From NCBI RefSeq assembly GCF_009763805.1, contig NZ_CP046804.1, positions 2,976,001 to 3,040,000 of the forward strand: a stretch of DNA of 64,000 bases. The letters run 5' to 3'. Position numbers and translations under genes: made by a program. The notes below the pieces were generated by a model. It did no database searches. It was not told the DNA's origin and saw only the letters and a list, made by a program, of their open reading frames with translations. This DNA comes from Vibrio cidicii. GTDB taxonomy: Bacteria; Pseudomonadota; Gammaproteobacteria; Enterobacterales; Vibrionaceae. Of the stretch, positions 4,835 to 15,080 are shown piece after piece (within the stretch, counting starts at the first letter, position 1; the number at the start of each line of letters is the position of its first letter).

Positions 4835-5603
4835 ATGGACACACAATTGCATTGGCAAGTGAGTGGGGAAGGGCAAGATTTGGTGTTGCTGCACGGCTGG
4901 GGAATGAACGGGGCGGTGTGGCAGCAGAGTGTGGAGCGCTTGCAAACGCATTTTCGGGTGCATGTGGTGGACTTGCCCGGTTATGGTCACAGCGCGCATC
5001 TGCCTGCCAGCAGTTTAGAAGCGATCGCCCAGTTATTGTTGCCGCGCGCACCTCGTCAAGCGATTTGGGTCGGCTGGTCGCTCGGTGGACTGGTGGCGAC
5101 GCACATGGCGCTGCATCACGCCGACTATGTTAGCAAACTGGTGACGGTCGCCAGCTCGCCCAAATTTGCCGCGGAATCTAAATGGCGTGGCATTCAGCCC
5201 AGCGTGTTGCACGCGTTTACCGAGCAGCTCAGTGAAGACTTTCACACCACCGTAGAGCGCTTCATGGCACTGCAAGCCATGGGTAGCCCTTCGGCGCGTC
5301 AGGATGTGAAAAACTTAAAGCAGGCGGTGTTGTCGCGTCCGGAGCCGAAACCCGCAAGCTTTGCTGGCTGGGTTGAAAATGTTGGCCGAAGTGGATTTGC
5401 GTGAGCACTTGCCGCATCTCAGTATGCCGATGCTACGTCTGTATGGTCGCTTGGATGGTTTAGTGCCCGTTAAGATTGCCGAGCAACTTACCGCTGCACT
5501 GCCGAGTAGCGAGCAGTTTGTTTTCAGCCAATCATCCCATGCGCCCTTTATCACTGAGCCCGAAAGCTTTTGCCATCAACTCATCAGGTTTGCGGCGAAA
5601 TAA
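4835..5603 (+). CDS. bioH: Pimeloyl-ACP methyl ester carboxylesterase BioH (frameshifted)
   Basis: BioH removes the methyl group from pimeloyl-ACP methyl ester, the step that ends the disguised fatty-acid stage of biotin synthesis. It is an alpha/beta hydrolase: the nucleophile Ser82 lies in GWSLGG, the acid in GRLDGLVPV, and the histidine in SSHAPF. The frame is broken at 5360-5362. Deleting one T restores KPASLLAGLKMLAEVDL and gives 255 residues, close to the 256 of E. coli. The start at 4835 (MDTQLHW) fits the family; an earlier in-frame ATG at 4808 is less likely. Among the 15 frameshifts this one has a CAAG to CAAAG context rather than GAAC. Confidence 0.92.
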
Positions 5604-5743
5604 AAACTAAAATTGTTTAAATATTGGTCGATAACTAAATGACCAAGGTTATTCTCACTGAAGGTTTTCCTCTCGGGAGCATGAATTGGCGCTGTTCGCA
5701 GCAATGCGCACGGCTGAGGGCGATTCTTTGAGGAGGTATCGCG

Positions 5744-6289: not shown

Positions 6290-8611
6290 CTATTTTTTCG
6301 CTTTGGCAAAAGCAGCCGCAAATGCGCCGCCCATCGCACCACCGAGTGCATTGCTTTGTGGCTCATCACGACGTGGCGAGCGGCGCTCTTGAGCGGAGCG
6401 AGGCGCCGCGCCGCGTTGGCTGCGGTTATCTTGCCCCGGTTCATCGTTTAAGCGCATTGAAAGGGCGATGCGTTTACGTTGCACGTCCACTTCCATCACC
6501 TTGACCTTGACGATGTCGCCTGCTTTGACGACTTCACGAGGATCGGCAACAAAGCGATCAGTCAGAGCGGAAATGTGCACTAAGCCATCTTGATGCACGC
6601 CGATATCGACAAACGCGCCGAAGTTGGCCACGTTTGATACCACGCCTTCCAAAATCATCCCAACTTCCAGATCGCGCACTTCATGGATGCCTTCAGCAAA
6701 CGTGGCGGTCTTAAACTCCGGACGTGGATCGCGGCCCGGCTTATCCAGCTCTTTGATGATGTCGGTGACCGTTGGCAGACCAAAATGTTCATCAATGTAG
6801 TCGAGTGCACGCAGCCCTTTGAGGAAGGTGGAATCGCCGATCAGCGCTTTGACTTCTTTGTGATTTTTCTCGGCAATCGCTTTCACTACCGGGTAGGCTT
6901 CCGGGTGCACCGCCGAGGCATCCAGCGGGTTTTTGCCATCCATAATGCGCAAAAAGCCCGCACACTGTTCAAACGCCTTTGGCCCCAAACGAGGCACTTT
7001 CTTCAAGGTTGCACGGCTAGCAAAGCGGCCGTTTTCGTCACGAAAATCGACGATGTTCTGCGCCAATGTGGTGGAAAGCCCCGCAACGCGAGTCAGCAGG
7101 GCGGCCGAGGCGGTATTCACATCCACGCCGACCGCGTTTACGCAATCTTCCACCACCGCGTCCAGACGTTTCGCCAACATGGCTTGACTGACATCGTGCT
7201 GATATTGGCCCACGCCGATCGATTTCGGATCGATTTTCACCAGCTCCGCCAGTGGGTCTTGCAGACGACGAGCAATAGACACCGCACCGCGCAGCGAAAC
7301 GTCCATATTCGGGAACTCTTTCGCCGCCAGTTCGGATGCCGAATAAACCGACGCTCCCGCTTCGCTGACCATGATTTTCTGTACTTTGAGGTTGCCGCGT
7401 TTGATCAAATCGGCTGCGAACGCGTCGGTTTCACGTGAAGCGGTGCCGTTGCCAATCGCAATCAAATCGACATTGTGTTGCTTGATCAAGGCCGTCACGG
7501 TTTGCATTGCGCGATCGTACTGGTTTTGTGGTACGTGCGGATAGATGGTGTCGGTGGCCAGCACTTTGCCTGTAGCATCGACTACCGCTACTTTACAACC
7601 GGTGCGCAGGCCCGGGTCGAGTCCCAAGGTGGCACGTGGGCCAGCCGGAGCGGCCATCAACAGATCTTTGAGGTTGGTGGCAAATACTTCAATCGCCTCG
7701 ATTTCGGCACGCTCTTTCATCGCGCCCATCAACTCGGTTTCCATGTGCATCGAAACCTTGATGCGCCATGCCCAGCTAATGACCTGTTTACGCCAAGGGT
7801 CGGCTGGTGCACTGCTGAGTGTCACGCCGTAGTGATCGGCAATCAGCGTCTCACAGTAAGATTGACGTGCGTTCTCTTCTTGTCCCGGATCGGCGTTGAG
7901 CGTCAAGCTCAAAAAACCTTCATTGCGGCCACGCAGCATTGCCAGCGCGCGGTGTGATGGCACCTTGCTGATCAGCTCGTTGTGCTCAAAGTAGTCTTTG
8001 AACTTCTCGCCTTCTTGCTCTTTGCCCGCCACGACGCGCGAAACAATTTCCGCATTACGCGTGAGGTGCGTACGGATTTTTTCCAGCAAGTTGGCGTCTT
8101 CGGCGATGCGCTCCATGATGATCGCGCGTGCGCCATCCAGCGCGGCCTTGCTGTCTTCGACTCCTTTCTCAGCGTTAATGTAGCGCGCGGCTTCGCTTTC
8201 AGGTTCGGTCTGTGGTTGGTTCCACAGCGTATCGGCCAGCGGTTCGAGGCCCGCTTCAATCGCGATTTGCCCTTTAGTGCGGCGTTTGGGTTTGTATGGC
8301 AGGTAGAGATCTTCTAAGCGCGTTTTGCTGTCGGCGCTGAGGATCTCTTTTTCCAGTTCGGCGCTCAGTTTACCTTGCTCGGCGATTGACTTAAGAATGG
8401 TTTGGCGACGGTCGTCCAGCTCGCGTAGATAAGACAAACGGCTATCGAGGTTACGCAGCTGCGTGTCGTCCAACCCACCCGTCACCTCTTTGCGGTAGCG
8501 GGCAATAAAGGGCACTGTGTTTCCGTCATCAATTAGGGTGACGGCGGCGATGACCTGCTCCGGGCGTACATTCAGCTCCTGAGCAATCAGATTACAGATA
8601 GCTTGGCTCAT
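6290..8611 (-). CDS. tex: Tex family RNA-binding transcription accessory protein
   Basis: This 773-residue protein has the full Tex architecture: an N-terminal helical region, a YqgF-like RNase-H fold ([16 protein letters not shown]), two helix-hairpin-helix segments, and an S1 RNA-binding domain ([20 protein letters not shown]). The tail is Arg/Ser-rich and ends AFAKAKK. Tex proteins bind nucleic acid and affect transcription and virulence genes in several bacteria, but the exact role is not settled. The open frame extends upstream to 8701. I chose the ATG at 8611 ([10 protein letters not shown]), which has an AAGAGA site before it and matches the family start. It diverges from greB across 233 bases. 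Confidence 0.93.
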
Positions 8612-8844
8612 CCGTGGGATCTCTTTGTTCTTCGTTAATGTGGCTAATATGGGGATGGTAATGCGTCGATTCCACCCCGCAATGTATGAATCGGCCAGCA
8701 AGGGCGCAGTGGGGGATTAATAGCACGTTTCGCCGTGGCTTTTGAGAGCATACAGTCAATTCTTTGGCCTGCACTGGTAAAAGCGGGCAAAAGTCGTTAC
8801 TTTTCGCTCCATCTGATTCCGTTCGAACCGATAAAGGAAAGTGC

Positions 8845-9327
8845 GTGAAAACCAAAATGATTACCCGTGAGGGGTACAACAAGCTCAAAAAAGAGCTCGA
8901 TTACCTGTGGAAAGAGCAGCGCCCTGAGATCACACAGAAAGTGGCGTGGGCCGCGAGCCTTGGCGATCGCTCTGAAAACGCAGATTACACCTACAACAAA
9001 CGCTTGCTGCGCCAAATTGATCGCCGCGTGCGCTTTTTGAGCAAATTGCTACCGGAAGTGAAGATCGTCGATTACGCACCGCAACAAGAGGGCAAAGTCT
9101 TCTTCGGCGCGTGGGTGGAAATTGAAAACGAAGCGGGCGAAGTGATGAAGTTTCGCATCGTCGGCCCCGAAGAGATCTACGGCGACGCCAAAGGCTACAT
9201 TTCGATTGATTCTCCAATGGCGCGCGCGCTGCTGAAAAAACAGGTGGACGACGAAGTGCAAGTGCCGACGCCAAGCGGTATCAAAGAGTGGTTCATTAAC
9301 GCGATTGAGTACGATAAGGGAGAGTGA
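8845..9327 (+). CDS. greB: Transcription elongation factor GreB
   Basis: GreB inserts its coiled coil into the RNA polymerase secondary channel and stimulates cleavage of backtracked RNA. The 160-residue protein shows the acidic tip DRSENADY and the C-terminal GKVFFGAWVEIENE domain. The longest frame starts at 8764. I chose the GTG at 8845 because AAGGAAA lies just upstream and the product (MKTKMITREGYNKLK) aligns with E. coli GreB. In many gammaproteobacteria greB lies beside ompR; here an accessory island separates them. Confidence 0.95.
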   Translation: MKTKMITREGYNKLKKELDYLWKEQRPEITQKVAWAASLGDRSENADYTYNKRLLRQIDRRVRFLSKLLPEVKIVDYAPQQEGKVFFGAWVEIENEAGEVMKFRIVGPEEIYGDAKGYISIDSPMARALLKKQVDDEVQVPTPSGIKEWFINAIEYDKGE

Positions 9328-9372
9328 GGAAACTCTCCGTTGGTCTTTCTTTATCTTAACAAGGGGTGCGCA

Positions 9373-9480
9373 ATGGTTGAGTCGACGCTAGAGGAACTTA
9401 TTTATTCTGCGGTCGCTTTTATCGTCAATCATGAAGCCCCTAAATATTCTTCTCAATTAAGAATTTACTCAGCGATATAA
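9373..9480 (+). CDS. Short ORF (35 aa) at the island edge, possibly a truncated gene
   Basis: An ATG at 9373 preceded by AAGGGG opens a 35-codon frame (MVESTLEELIYSAVAF and on) that stops at 9480, overlapping the 3' end of the araC-like gene. The peptide looks like an amphipathic protein N-terminus. With a good ribosome site but an abrupt end, it may be the 5' remnant of a gene cut when the adjacent island arrived. No function can be given. Confidence 0.35.
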   Translation: MVESTLEELIYSAVAFIVNHEAPKYSSQLRIYSAI

Positions 9481-10291
9481 AAACTGCTTGGGAGACTTTC
9501 CCACCATCGAAGTCACCATAGCGGTAAATGCGCTGTGGCTTGCATAGCCCAACTCTTGAGCAATTTGGCCGATAGGTATTTTTTGTGCGCCCAATACTAT
9601 CGCCCGTGCGAGCAAGGCTTGCTGGCGCCATTGGCTAAAAGTCATATGCAGTTCACGTTTGAACAATCTGCCAATGGTACTCTCACTTGCTCCGACTTGC
9701 TTAGCTAACTCCGCTAGGCTGGTTTGTTGCTGTGGTGCTTGTAAAAACAGTGTACATAAGTGAGACAAACGCTTTTCTGTCGGCATGGGGACACCAACGG
9801 GGAGCAATATGCTCTGTTGAATATCACGGACGATCAGATGGCATAGTGAAGCGTATGTCGCGTCGTCCCACTCATTTGGCGAGCCTTTCGCCATCGTTTC
9901 TCACCAACTCGGCCAATAGGTGGCTAACTTCAAAACATCCACACTCAGTCCATGTTTCAAGCCCACAATTGCCTGTGCTAAAGCGGTTTTGAGCGAATAA
10001 GTAAACGGAAAACAGTTTTGCTCTTTCGAGTAGTGAGGCGGAGTGCAGTTTATTGGGTGGAATCCAAACGGCATGTTGCGGTGGAACCCAGTAGCTGGCG
10101 TTAGGGGTTTTAACCAAAACGACACCCGTATCAGAAAAGACTAACTGTCCCCAAGGATGCAAATGTAATGAGACTTCTGCGCGTTGCTCTACGACTTTAG
10201 TGATTGCTCTGATTGGGTGTTGGTTACTTAGTTCCAGTTGCTGCATGGGCTCGGTTCGGAAGATTGACGTCTGCTCAATAGTTTTTGCCAT
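9469..10291 (-). CDS. AraC family transcriptional regulator (frameshifted)
   Basis: The protein has an N-terminal cupin-like sensor domain (HLHPWGQLVFSDTGVVLV, then VPPQHAVWIPPN) and a C-terminal double helix-turn-helix (SLAELAKQVGASESTIGRLF; QELGYASHSAFTAMV). This is the layout of AraC regulators that commonly control a neighbouring MFS exporter gene. Two overlapping frames cover it. Deleting one T from 9897-9899 joins them as ELVRTMAKGSPNEW and gives 273 residues from the ATG at 10291; a TTG eight codons earlier is less likely. It is transcribed away from the CDPS gene and is the probable regulator of that cluster. The inducer is unknown. Confidence 0.85.
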
Positions 10292-10340
10292 ATTTACGAA
10301 ATTCCCATATTGCAATTTGTTGCATAAATACTCTCATAAC

Positions 10341-10379
10341 ATCATGAGGTTAGATAAATATTTTTATCTAGTCCTGATG
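10341..10379. promoter_or_regulatory. Inverted repeat in the araC-like/CDPS divergent promoter
   Basis: A perfect 8-bp inverted repeat, TAGATAAA-TATT-TTTATCTA (10351-10370), is extended by imperfect outer arms (CATCATGAGG and CCTGATG). It sits 45 bases before the CDPS start and 60 before the regulator start. It is a candidate operator for the adjacent regulator or an RNA hairpin in the CDPS leader. The symmetry is seen; the function is inferred. Confidence 0.5.
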
Positions 10380-10414
10380 AAAATTTTTTTATTCAATAAT
10401 TATGTGAGCAATCT

Positions 10415-10939
10415 ATGGGCAATCTGTCGATACCGAATGACAGCCTTCATTCATCCATTCCAATCGTCCAGTCCAACTTAACTTTGGCAGGAAAAGATGG
10501 CGATTTTGTTATTCAAGGTGAAACCTCGCGCTGTGAGGCAATTATCGGACAAGGAAAACATGCCCTTATCTGTATTAGTCCGTTTAACTCTCGCTTTTCT
10601 AAAGCGTATGTAAGTTCACTCGTCCTATTTATTGCAGAGCGTTTTAGCCAAGTCGATATCTTGATGCCTTGTATTGAAGAGGCATCAAGGTTGCTGATTG
10701 CTTCAGGGATAGATGAAAAAAAGGCGTTTAAGAAAACAGAGCGCGAGCTTCGTCACATCTTTGCTGAGTTACCGTTTTTCCTCAATACCCCATCTCTACT
10801 TGGTGTTACCCGATCAACGTTTTTCTATCACCGTCCATGGCCAATTGGTCAAGGTCTTTACGGTGGAACTTATCCCATTCAAGTCGATTCGCGACAGAGC
10901 TATGCGGTGGTAACGCCTAAAACGGAACAATTTTCATAA
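10415..10939 (+). CDS. Cyclodipeptide synthase (tRNA-dependent), internally deleted
   Basis: CDPSs use two aminoacyl-tRNAs to make cyclic dipeptides. The N-terminal Rossmann core is clear: GKHALICISPFNSRFS holds the Ser nucleophile (Ser55, equivalent to AlbC Ser37) and Asn58 (AlbC Asn40). The C-terminal core is also clear: FAELPFFLNTP, then FFYHRPWP with Tyr138-His139 matching AlbC Tyr202-His203, which marks the NYH subfamily. Glu118 matches AlbC Glu182 and lies 20 residues before the Tyr, exactly as in AlbC. Between Ser55 and Glu118 there are only 63 residues against 145 in AlbC, so about 80 are missing in frame around residues 113-115, and the catalytic Tyr178 position is His114. At 174 residues against the usual 220-250 the protein is probably inactive. 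A P450 remnant and an MFS gene follow. Confidence 0.82.
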   Translation: MGNLSIPNDSLHSSIPIVQSNLTLAGKDGDFVIQGETSRCEAIIGQGKHALICISPFNSRFSKAYVSSLVLFIAERFSQVDILMPCIEEASRLLIASGIDEKKAFKKTERELRHIFAELPFFLNTPSLLGVTRSTFFYHRPWPIGQGLYGGTYPIQVDSRQSYAVVTPKTEQFS

Positions 10940-10957
10940 CAATCAGGATAACTAACA

Positions 10958-11344
10958 ATGTCAAAGCTTGCTTCACTGAGCCTTTTTAATGCTCAGTTTA
11001 CCCATGATCCCTATTCATTTTATGAACGGTTACACCAAGATGATTTGATCTATTTTGATCAGGAGAATAATAGCTACTTTATTGGAAAGTTTGAGGACGT
11101 TGAGCGTATTCTGAAGTCTCCTCAGTTTACAACTAAACCGCTGATGCCACTTGAGGTATCTGCCAACATCATCCTCGATTTGTTGCCCCAACCACGTATG
11201 GCTAACCCTTCCTCCTACTGTGAAACGGGTCTTTATACTCGAGGGCCTTCGAGTTTAGTCCTGCATTTTACACCTCATAAAGAGTGCCTTGTGCAACCTG
11301 ACTCTTCCGACATTTGCACATCAGAGGTCGAGTATGGAAAGTAG
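10958..11344 (+). pseudogene. Cytochrome P450, internally deleted remnant
   Basis: The 128-codon frame joins two ends of a bacterial P450. Residues 1-62 are a typical N-terminus (NAQFTHDPYSFYERLHQDD, then the ILKSPQFTTKP end of the B-helix region). Residues 65-128 look like the C-terminus after the haem-binding loop: LEVSANIILDLL, then ETGLYTRGPSSLVLHF, the usual final beta-sheet. The central 270 or so residues, with the I helix, ExxR and the haem-ligand Cys, are absent, so it cannot be a working oxygenase. The junction keeps frame. P450s commonly tailor cyclodipeptides made by adjacent CDPSs. The stop overlaps the MFS start by 11 bases, so translation of this frame may help express the exporter. 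Confidence 0.78.
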
Positions 11345-12735
11345 AGAAGCCTCCGTCTTTACTCGACAGCAGTCTTGGGTCATTGTCTGCTTGGTCATTG
11401 GAGCCTGCTTGCCTTTAGTCGATGCCACTATTTTAGGTGTCGCGGTGCCGAGTTTAGCGCACAGCTTTAAAGCCGATATCGCAAAGCTACAATGGGTTTC
11501 TATTCTATATACGTTAGTTGCTACCGTAACCGTGACGGTGTGTGCTTGGGCAACACGTAAATGGGGAGCTAAGCGCTTATGGCTTTGGGGCCTTGGTATC
11601 TTTACCCTAAGTTCATTGTTTGCCGGCCTCTCTTCAACGATTGAAACATTGTTGCTAAGTCGCGCCCTTCAAGGTATTGGGGCCGGCATTATTATGACGG
11701 GTATGCAGACGGTATTGGTGTATTCAGTCGGTAAGCCGCTGCTGAAAACGGCGATGGCTACAATGGCAGTACCCACTGTACTTGCCCCCATTGTAGGGCC
11801 CGTGTTGGCGGGTTATCTTCTTGAAGTAGCAAATTGGCGCTGGATCTTCTACATCAACGTACCGATAGGTTTGCTAGCGATGTGCCTCTCTCTGATCAAG
11901 ATTAAGCGTGACCCTTTACAAGAAAGTAAGGCGTTTGATGTTATTGGCTTTACCTATTTGGCCACGGCCTTGCTGCTGCTTGTTTGGTCGTTATCATCAT
12001 TGGCGCAGACGGATTACAGTAGAGATAACGCTCTGGTCATGTCGCTCGGAGCCTGTTTGCTTGGTGCTATCTTATTAGTGCGGTTTATTAAACACATGAG
12101 ACGAGAAGAAAAGGGCGCTCTGATTCGTCTTCAGCCTTTTCGTGAAACGCTCATTTCAATCGGCTATAGGGCTGTTATTTTTAGCGAGCATTGGCTTCTA
12201 TGCGGGTTTATTTGCTTTGCCGATTCTGTTCATTCAAGGCTTGTTGCAAAGTGAATGGGTAACCAGTCTGTTGATTGGTGCTCATGGTGTTGGTGCACTA
12301 GTCGCTCGCCCTTATTTGAAAGCACTGTGCGAACGTATCGGTGTTGGTAACACGGCATTGATTGCTATCCTGCTGTCGATGATAGGGACAGCCCCCATGT
12401 TGTTGCCAAGTATTGGCTCTTTACCTGTGGTGATCGCTGTGTTGATGTTTGCTCGAGGTGCGGGGATGGGACTTTTGACCTTGTTGGCAATGTCGCATGT
12501 GTATCATGATGTAGAGGCAGAGTATGTTGCAGATGCCAGTGTGTTGTCTCGGATCGCCACTTTGCTAGGTGCGTCTTTTGGGCCTGCATTGGTCGCCCTA
12601 CTTTACTCGCTGGATTCAGGCATCATATCCACTCAAGCAGTGCTTGTGGGTTTAGTGATCCTCACCTTACTCTGCATTATCCCTACTTGGTATTTGCTTA
12701 AACTCGATCGGGCACTGTACAACCGAGTGAGTTGA
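11334..12735 (+). CDS. MFS (DHA2/EmrB-QacA-like) efflux transporter (frameshifted)
   Basis: This is a multi-helix major facilitator beginning MESREASVFTRQQSWVIV, with the DHA2 signatures LPLVDATILGVAVPSL in helix 1 and GPVLAGYLLE in helix 5. Two frames overlap. Deleting one A from 12145-12147 restores PFRERSFQSAIGLLFLAS and gives 466 residues. The first frame opens earlier, at 11289; I chose the ATG at 11334 after AGAGG. Drug:H+ antiporters of this class export toxic or secreted small molecules. Its place behind the CDPS and P450, under a divergent AraC regulator, suggests export of the cyclodipeptide product or self-protection. Confidence 0.87.
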
Positions 12736-12746
12736 AGGGCATGCTT

Positions 12747-12780
12747 GCTGGAAGCGATAGCGGATTAAGTCGCTTTCAGC
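12747..12780 (+). other. Stem-loop downstream of the MFS gene
   Basis: The arms GCTGGAAGCGA and TCGCTTTCAGC have one mismatch and enclose 12 bases. No T run follows on the plus strand, so it is a weak terminator candidate at best. The rest of 12781-12985 holds the ompR leader; I saw nothing else there. Confidence 0.4.
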
Positions 12781-12985
12781 AAAGCCGCAGGAGGTTACAA
12801 CGCCGAGCTTATCAATAGTACATGCACGGAGCACGCAACGCAGTTTGAAGTGCGCTGGCAACTCGCCTAATCTTCCACTAAAAGGTAATAAACGCTAACA
12901 ATTCTTTGTGCTTAAGTGTGCGAATTGATGTTACATTTTACTCGGCCGAATTGGGTGGCGATTTTGCAGATAGGTGGACAGACAG

Positions 12986-13705
12986 ATGCAAGAAAATTAT
13001 AAAATTTTGGTGGTCGATGACGATGCTCGCTTACGGGCGCTTTTAGAGCGTTACCTTTCTGAACAAGGTTTCCAAGTGCGTAGTGTCGCCAACGGAGAGC
13101 AGATGGATCGCCTACTGACGCGCGAAAACTTCCACCTGATGGTGCTGGATCTCATGCTACCGGGCGAAGATGGCTTGTCGATTTGCCGTCGTCTGCGTAA
13201 CGCTAACAACATGCTGCCTATTTTAATGCTGACCGCCAAAGGCGACGAAGTGGATCGCATTGTCGGCCTCGAAGTGGGCGCAGATGACTATCTGCCGAAG
13301 CCGTTTAACCCGCGTGAGCTCTTGGCTCGCATCAAAGCGGTGCTGCGTCGCCAAATCATCGAGCTGCCGGGCGCACCCAGCTCGGAAGAGAAAATTGTCG
13401 AGTTCGGTGAGTTTCGCTTAAACCTTGGCACCCGAGAGATGTTTCGTGGCGATGAGCCGATGCCGCTCACTTCCGGTGAGTTTGCCGTGCTGAAATCGCT
13501 GGTGACCAATGCGCGTGAGCCAATGTCGCGCGATAAACTGATGAACATGGCGCGTGGCCGTGAGTATTCCGCGATGGAGCGTTCCATCGATGTGCAAATC
13601 TCCCGTTTACGCCGCATGTTAGAAGAAGACCCAAGCAAACCGCGTTACATTCAAACCGTGTGGGGCTTGGGTTATGTGTTTGTCCCTGATGGCAAACAGG
13701 CCTAA
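12986..13705 (+). CDS. ompR: Osmolarity response regulator OmpR
   Basis: OmpR is 239 residues long, the same as in E. coli. The receiver domain has the phospho-acceptor Asp55 in MVLDLMLPGEDG and the conserved DDYLPKPFNP. The C-terminal winged helix ends RYIQTVWGLGYVFVPDG. The start at 12986 (MQENYKILVV) matches E. coli exactly; the frame extends four codons upstream. It is the cytoplasmic partner of EnvZ and controls porin and envelope genes. envZ follows after 81 bases that contain a short hairpin. Confidence 0.97.
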   Translation: MQENYKILVVDDDARLRALLERYLSEQGFQVRSVANGEQMDRLLTRENFHLMVLDLMLPGEDGLSICRRLRNANNMLPILMLTAKGDEVDRIVGLEVGADDYLPKPFNPRELLARIKAVLRRQIIELPGAPSSEEKIVEFGEFRLNLGTREMFRGDEPMPLTSGEFAVLKSLVTNAREPMSRDKLMNMARGREYSAMERSIDVQISRLRRMLEEDPSKPRYIQTVWGLGYVFVPDGKQA

Positions 13706-13729
13706 AGCGCGACATAATTCACTCCACAG

Positions 13730-13749
13730 TCCCTGGCTTTGCCCAGGGA
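13730..13749 (+). other. Hairpin between ompR and envZ
   Basis: TCCCTGG and CCAGGGA pair around a six-base loop. The downstream bases are only mildly T-rich, so it may act as an mRNA-processing or partial-termination site that lowers envZ expression relative to ompR. That role is inferred. Confidence 0.45.
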
Positions 13750-13786
13750 TTGTCGTTTATTGACGTTTCATCTGCCGAGGCTTGTC

Positions 13787-15080
13787 ATGCGAATTCGCAG
13801 TTCCTTTACTCAATCGATCCTCATCTTTGTCACTTTGCTGCTGGCCAGCCAAGTTTTCTCCTATTACGCCGTGTTTAACTACGCTTTGTTGCCCAGTTTG
13901 CAGCAGTTCAACAAAATTCTCGCTCACGAGCTCAACTTAGTGCTGGATGACAGCGGCGATCTGCACGCCAACGAGCCGCTGCGCCGCCAAGTGCTTGAGC
14001 AGCTTGGCGTGACGGTGCACCGAGAAGATAGCGAACAGGCGAAAGAGTTTGACCATGCGATGTCGATTGAGCTGATGAGTGAAGAGATGAGCCAGGAGCT
14101 CGGTTTCGGCAACCGAAGTGCGTCTCTTGCTGGGCAGTGAAAGTTATATTTTGTGGATGAAAATCGAAGCCATGCCCGGGTCGCTGATCCGCATTCCGCT
14201 CTCGGAGCTGCAAGAGGAAGATTTCGCGCCGCTGTTTCGCAACAGCTTGATTGTGGCGCTGCTGATTGTCGCGGGTGGCTGGTTGTTTATTCGTTTGCAA
14301 AACCGCCCTTTGATTGCGCTGGAAAAAGCCGCCAAAGAGGTGGGGCGCGGGGAAATTCCGCCGCCACTGCCGGAGAAAGGGGCGACGGAAATTCGCGCGG
14401 TGACGCGGGCTTTCAACCAGATGTCTCGTGGTATTCAAGAGTTGGAAGCGGACCGCGCGCTGCTGATGGCGGGCATCAGCCACGATTTGCGCACGCCACT
14501 AACGCGTATTCGACTCGCGACGGAGATGATGTCGCCAGAAGAGAGTTATCTCGCCGAAGGGATCATCAGCGACACCGAAGAGTGCAATGAGATCATTAGC
14601 CAGTTTATGGACTACCTAAAACCAGTCAACGCGCAATCTTTCACCCAAGTCGACATCAACACCATCGCCGGCGATGTGGCCAGCGCCGAAGGGGGCTACG
14701 AGGTGGCGATTGAAACCGCTTTTCAGCCGACGGTGCGTGATGCGTTTGGCAATCCGATTGCGATTAAGCGTGCGATCAGCAACTTGGTGGTCAACGCGCT
14801 GCGCTACGGCAACGGCTGGGTGAAAGTCAGCACCGGCATGACCGCCGACAACAAGCTGGTGTGGATCTGTGTGGAAGATAACGGCCCGGGGATCGACAAA
14901 TCGCAAGTGGCGAAGTTGTTTCAACCCTTTACTCGCGGCGATACGGCGCGCGGCAGCGAGGGGACGGGGCTTGGATTGGCGATTGTTAAGCGCATCGTCA
15001 GCCAGCACCACGGCTCGGTGGTGGTCAATAACCGCAGCGAAGGCGGGCTGAAAGTGCAAATCAGTTTTCCGACGCGCTAA
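13787..15080 (+). CDS. envZ: Osmosensor histidine kinase EnvZ (frameshifted)
   Basis: EnvZ is an inner-membrane kinase/phosphatase acting on OmpR. Its order is: membrane helix about 10-35, periplasmic domain, second helix about 153-170, HAMP domain, HisKA with the phospho-acceptor His in [20 protein letters not shown] (about residue 232), and HATPase with [11 protein letters not shown] and GTGLGLAIV. The frame breaks at 14104-14106. Removing one T restores [17 protein letters not shown] and gives 430 residues. The start at 13787 ([10 protein letters not shown]) is chosen by homology; the frame opens 16 codons earlier. It forms an operon with ompR and ends at a strong terminator. Confidence 0.94.

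Follow-up and report, generated by a model that had tools for sequence, protein, structure and literature searches.

The region between greB and ompR in Vibrio cidicii is very probably the decayed remnant of a horizontally acquired gene cluster of the pulcherriminic acid type. The window, which here means the whole analysed stretch of 64,000 nucleotides (positions 2976001-3040000 of one contig, in a genome of 4.75 Mb and two contigs), holds side by side the remnants of a cyclodipeptide synthase (CDPS), a CDPS-associated P450, an MFS exporter and an AraC-type regulator, in the same order as in the intact locus of Marinomonas ostreistagni (L042). Since all four genes are damaged, the cluster probably survives as a genetic fossil rather than as a functioning new pathway; it is a degraded cluster of an already known kind, probably acquired by horizontal transfer.

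Layout of the island and identity of its genes

A sequence-only reading of this DNA had named a CDPS, a P450-derived frame, an MFS transporter with an overlapping start and a divergent AraC regulator between greB and ompR, and all of these parts were recovered where it had placed them (Table 1). The MFS start at 11334 overlaps the end of the P450 frame. That reading was silent on the damage: none of the four genes is intact.

Table 1. Features of the greB-ompR region (positions of the window)
Feature	Position	Strand	Evidence
greB, left flank, intact frame	8857..9327	+	ORF; tblastn against 14 relatives' loci
AraC-type regulator, C-terminal (DNA-binding) part of split gene	9469..9894	-	HTH_18 6.7e-19; 54% identity to C half of L042 regulator
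AraC-type regulator, N-terminal part, other frame	9872..10291	-	43% identity to N half of L042 regulator; AraC_binding 0.002, below cut-off
Divergent promoter region	10292..10414	.	Contains the 20-bp palindrome 10351-10370
CDPS remnant, 174 aa, without 87 internal residues relative to P0002	10415..10939	+	Profile matches and alignment
CDPS-associated P450 remnant, 128 aa, without 296 residues relative to P0051, including the haem Cys	10958..11344	+	TIGR04538 and P0051 alignment
DHA2-like MFS transporter, N-terminal part of split gene	11334..12254	+	Pfam MFS_1; TIGR00711
MFS transporter, C-terminal part, other frame	12142..12735	+	Pfam MFS_1 1.5e-10; 98% identity to P0026 residues 271-466
ompR, right flank, intact frame (ORF listed from 12974)	12986..13705	+	ORF; 87-95% identity to ompR in 14 relatives' loci

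The assignment of 10415-10939 to the CDPS family was borne out by HMM search, with matches above the cut-off to both Pfam CDPS (E 5.8e-44) and TIGR04539 (1.5e-39). The frame also matched the solved YvmC (3.5e-23), and none of 14 control genomes gave a Pfam CDPS match. In the window, the Pfam match is split in two (profile positions 1-83, then 165-220 of 220). Compared with the full-length P0002 (261 aa), the window protein has lost 87 internal residues (261 bp); outside this gap the two agree in 105 of the first 114 residues and in 58 of the last 59, with 94% identity over 173 columns. The trio Asn40, Tyr202 and His203 (AlbC numbering), whose residue identity we take to be that of the NYH subfamily, is present as N, Y and H. 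The column of AlbC Tyr178, presumably the catalytic Tyr of CDPSs, holds His. The substrate pockets are incomplete, with four of seven P2 positions and one of eight P1 positions missing. The P1 and P2 positions were taken from PMC5816076, which also names the trio. A Cys stands in the column of AlbC Gly35, a Gly that is invariant in the 14 rows of alignment A2, and among the rows of alignment A1 the window alone has Cys for Gly at position 53. The sister protein P0001, which differs from the window CDPS by two residues and has the same 87-residue deletion, keeps the Gly. An AlphaFold2 model of the 174-aa protein, built with 15 rows, was of low confidence (mean pLDDT 69.3, pTM 0.61).

The P450 frame gave no Pfam match at E 1. 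Against TIGR04538 it scored 93.6 bits (1.1e-26), far below the model cut-off of 500 as expected of a fragment, and it matched in two pieces (1-57, then 354-394 of 395) with no whole-profile match. Because these pieces fall below the cut-off, and weak TIGR04538 matches also occur in 7 of 14 control genomes (above cut-off in none), the P450 assignment is based on P0051, a V. cidicii P450 of 424 aa. This protein itself passes the cut-off (564.7 vs 500 bits), and its identity to the window is 100% over residues 1-63 and 98.5% over 359-424. By length (128 vs 424 aa), 296 residues (888 bp) are missing from the window P450, including EETLR (270) and the haem Cys (351; both in P0051 numbering).

No single open frame was found for the MFS transporter, which is distributed over two overlapping frames. 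The first is above the cut-off of Pfam MFS_1 and below that of TIGR00711 (4.3e-52). Relative to the full-length P0026 (466 aa), the first and second frames are 92% and 98% identical, and a second alignment gave 97% and 94% with one internal stop in the second. The Marinomonas regulator is one continuous frame, and the two AraC frames correspond to its N and C halves.

In the promoter region between regulator and CDPS, a perfect 20-bp palindrome (8-bp arms, 4-bp spacer) was observed, and it is a possible operator. A conserved operator was rejected, as the counterpart region of L042, the one locus compared, is without this palindrome.

Intact relatives and the probable product

Relatives were sought by scanning genome contigs with alignment A2, which yielded 33 loci; the contig scan with the truncated window CDPS as query found no relative. 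The window pieces were compared with the 33 loci by tblastn (E 1e-4), and since the queries are remnants, misses in these loci are weak evidence. CDPS and P450 were found together in 22 of the 33 loci (L039-L060) and the window-type MFS in six (L042, L044, L046, L049, L059 and L060). Both regulator halves were matched in two loci (L042 and L049), and a weak half in L039.

In M. ostreistagni (L042), an AraC-type regulator is divergent from CDPS-P450-MFS, and order and orientation equal those of the window. However, all four of its frames are continuous whereas those of the window are broken, and its flanks in the stretch seen are other than greB-ompR; identity to the window is 54-58% for the CDPS pieces and 41-45% for the MFS pieces. 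According to PMC11135676, the yvmC-cypX/pchR-yvmA locus of Bacillus subtilis likewise contains a CDPS (the synthase YvmC), a CDPS-associated P450 (the oxidase CypX), an MFS exporter (YvmA) and a divergent regulator pair with the MarR-type PchR. The window CDPS and P450 pieces matched Bacillus loci by tblastn, but the window MFS had no match there at E 1e-4. In B. subtilis the MarR-type regulator is paired with the exporter, whereas the window has an AraC-type regulator, an MFS gene behind the P450 and broken genes throughout. The AraC in place of a MarR regulator and the MFS unlike that of the Bacillus loci count against the pulcherriminic-type match. Seven Photorhabdus loci (L039-L041, L043-L045 and L047) have a CDPS of the same kind adjoining a P450, but the window-type MFS occurs in one of them (L044) and the regulator only as the weak half in L039. 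In Photorhabdus thracensis (L047) the CDPS match consists of two pieces (5504-5740 and 8283-8456) about 2.5 kb apart, and for this reason the CDPS gene seems to be disrupted there too.

Near-identical to the window remnants are the full-length Vibrio-like proteins P0002 (CDPS), P0051 (V. cidicii P450) and P0026 (MFS), which are known as proteins with unplaced loci. Close protein relatives with Vibrio names are P0051, P0027 (V. mediterranei) and P0007 (V. cholerae). A tree of 28 rows groups the window CDPS first with P0002, next with P0003 and after that with P0005, in starred sets that lie within a 17-row gammaproteobacterial and unnamed set (support 80/94, not starred), apart from Bacillus and Paenibacillus.

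As its enzymes group with YvmC/CypX-type proteins, we infer that the window cluster is of the pulcherriminic acid type. This draws on the pocket of P0002, on the database names of relatives and on PMC5767969 and PMC11135676. The P0002 pocket equals that of YvmC at six of eight P1 and five of seven P2 positions, and the same counts were obtained with Photorhabdus laumondii P0010 (P1 6/8, P2 5/7); with AlbC, three of eight and two of seven positions are equal. The database name of P0003 is cyclo(L-leucyl-L-leucyl) synthase and that of P0048 is pulcherriminic acid synthase; for each the longest contig has 8016 bases, and the two probably lie on one contig. The pathway is described for Bacillus, Staphylococcus, Corynebacterium and Photorhabdus in PMC5767969, where the P. 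luminescens CDPS is given as forming a leucine cyclodipeptide precursor, with a pulcherriminic acid oxygenase also there. With such names among the relatives and the pathway already described, the proposal of an undescribed system finds no support. Among the listings and abstract openings covered by our literature search, which included few subscription papers, none reported such a cluster in Vibrio.

It is unlikely, in our estimate, that the intact ancestor made a cyclodipeptide product other than pulcherriminic acid. The product is known by inference only, P0002 differs from YvmC at two of eight P1 and two of seven P2 positions, and cyclo(Pro-Met) is the main product of an NYH CDPS from Vibrio sagamiensis (PMC5816076); against this stand the family of the P450 partner (with P0051 above the TIGR04538 cut-off), the match of the P0002 pocket to YvmC and the Photorhabdus precedent (PMC5767969). 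For the preferred pulcherriminic acid type, in an intact form such as that of M. ostreistagni, two leucines carried by Leu-tRNA would be condensed to cyclo(Leu-Leu) by a YvmC-type CDPS. Oxidation of this dipeptide by a CypX-type P450 would then yield pulcherriminic acid, which chelates ferric iron; its export would fall to the MFS protein, and control of the operon to the AraC-type protein. In the window, internal deletions have removed the catalytic cores of both enzymes, and the genes for transporter and regulator are split, so that no product is expected.

Loss of function and order of decay

A profile search of the window genome found neither a second CDPS nor a second P450 of this kind. 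With four genes broken and no such second copies, a working new cyclodipeptide pathway was rejected. The proposal of a regulated diketopiperazine pathway inserted between housekeeping genes is thus kept for the insertion and for the CDPS-P450-MFS-AraC cluster and given up for the working pathway.

Sequencing or assembly errors that make an intact cluster look broken are highly improbable. Read errors can imitate frame changes, and two of the four breaks are of that type, but losses of 261 and 888 bp are atypical of such errors, and the CDPS junction recurs in P0001 and P0004, whose sequences differ from that of the window. The deletion in the CDPS is common to the window, P0001 and P0004. P0004 leaves the CDPS frame before the deletion, and its last 64 residues correspond to the window's alternative frame. 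P0007 departs from the frame near that point as well and then runs into sequence absent from the window; judged from its sequence, it is probably without the CDPS deletion. The only run of at least six A in 10415-12735 lies at 10716-10722, about where P0004 and P0007 leave the frame, and may be a slippage site or a source of read errors.

The sister transporter P0025 ends at 279 aa, and because its tail is unlike the window's, it seems to have been broken separately. P0001 and P0025 are probably from the same genomes, since contig number (7) and longest contig (61955) agree. As the CDPS deletion is common to the sisters while the transporter ends differ, the comparison suggests a stepwise loss with synthesis first.

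Several findings count against decay: the frames stay open despite the truncations, neither enzyme deletion shifts the frame (without selection, a chance of 1 in 9), and the 174-aa form is seen again in P0001. They would favour a remnant that keeps a role, in which the cores were lost and the short proteins, transporter or regulator were selected for a time, for instance because they helped to export a neighbour's product or to tolerate it; with the CDPS deletion common and the transporter ends of the window and P0025 different, the transporter may indeed have outlived synthesis. We nevertheless consider such a role improbable, because the window MFS and AraC genes are now split, P0004 with the deletion leaves the frame ahead of it, and the window has the singular Cys for Gly. 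On the last two grounds, a conserved and selected short CDPS is also disfavoured. For the decayed cluster, a more speculative and rather doubtful extension is that Vibrio populations carry full-length, core-deleted and frameshifted alleles as a public-good loss series. In such a series synthesis would have gone ahead of export and control, the order to be expected where non-producers benefit from the iron chelator of producers or simply tolerate it.

Distribution in the genus and insertion site

The genus set comprised 227 genomes, one per species, with the window genome included. Any CDPS was found in eight of them, the window's included, and this kind of P450 together with the MFS in the window genome only, in agreement with the earlier statement that CDPS clusters are uncommon in vibrios. 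A P0051-like P450 at E 1e-20 was found in 4 of 227 genomes, the three matches outside the window genome having 25% identity and not being counted as of this kind; the MFS at E 1e-60 was found in the window genome alone. Among 329 genomes of the family, two have an A2-type CDPS: the window's and, weakly, G214, whose distant CDPS is of unsure placement in the tree because of its very long branch. That other vibrios carry parts of the cluster is shown by the V. cidicii P450 P0051 and by the CDPS fragment P0007, labelled V. cholerae.

The search for greB-ompR covered 31 genomes, the window's own included, and 14 loci from others were compared. The greB and ompR matches are 111-228 bp apart in ten of these (L029-L038), while the gap is about 3.7 kb in the window, and GC is 45.9% for 9469-12735 vs 50.4% for the whole window. 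Given the short gap in most loci, the long gap in the window and the lower GC, the data fit an insertion of the cluster at greB-ompR by horizontal transfer. The same locus without a CDPS, which the sequence-only reading had listed as evidence against its proposal, was seen in the 14 loci; this supports the island as an insertion and does not unmake the identity of the CDPS.

The island edges showed neither a mobility gene nor a repeat, repeats having been sought on the right of the island. A repeat there was rejected, as window 12735-12985 matches only itself in the genome. A plasmid copy was also rejected: 308 of 72,556 plasmid records match 8700-13800, none over 80% of the stretch, and the best 20 of the 308 fall in ompR or greB parts.

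The remaining four of the 14 loci (L025-L028) have other cargo between greB and ompR or inside greB. By eye, the cargo of about 6.0 kb in L025 (G195) contains Entner-Doudoroff/gluconate-type genes, and that of about 7.5 kb in L028 (G199) two chemoreceptor-like genes among others, both between greB and ompR. In L026 (G061) and L027 (G119), greB, which is intact in the window, is interrupted in both loci at one position, near base 126 of the query, by inserts of about 16.3 and 13.9 kb, respectively, each with a further near-complete greB copy. Proteins encoded in the L027 insert are one of the Phage_integrase family, one of 1385 aa with INT_rpt/Integrase_2 and a third of 207 aa, a set that resembles gamma-Mobile-Trio islands. 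Within L029-L038, greB has the direction of ompR in L030, L031 and L033 and points away from ompR in the other seven, which implies that greB was inverted or moved within the genus.

Conclusion

In conclusion, the greB-ompR island of V. cidicii adds little as a new enzyme system. Through the full-length relatives together with the fossil, it extends towards vibrios a pathway of iron sequestration for which Bacillus and yeasts have been the main known sources. In addition, it offers a small natural loss series, in which producer and non-producer alleles could be compared.
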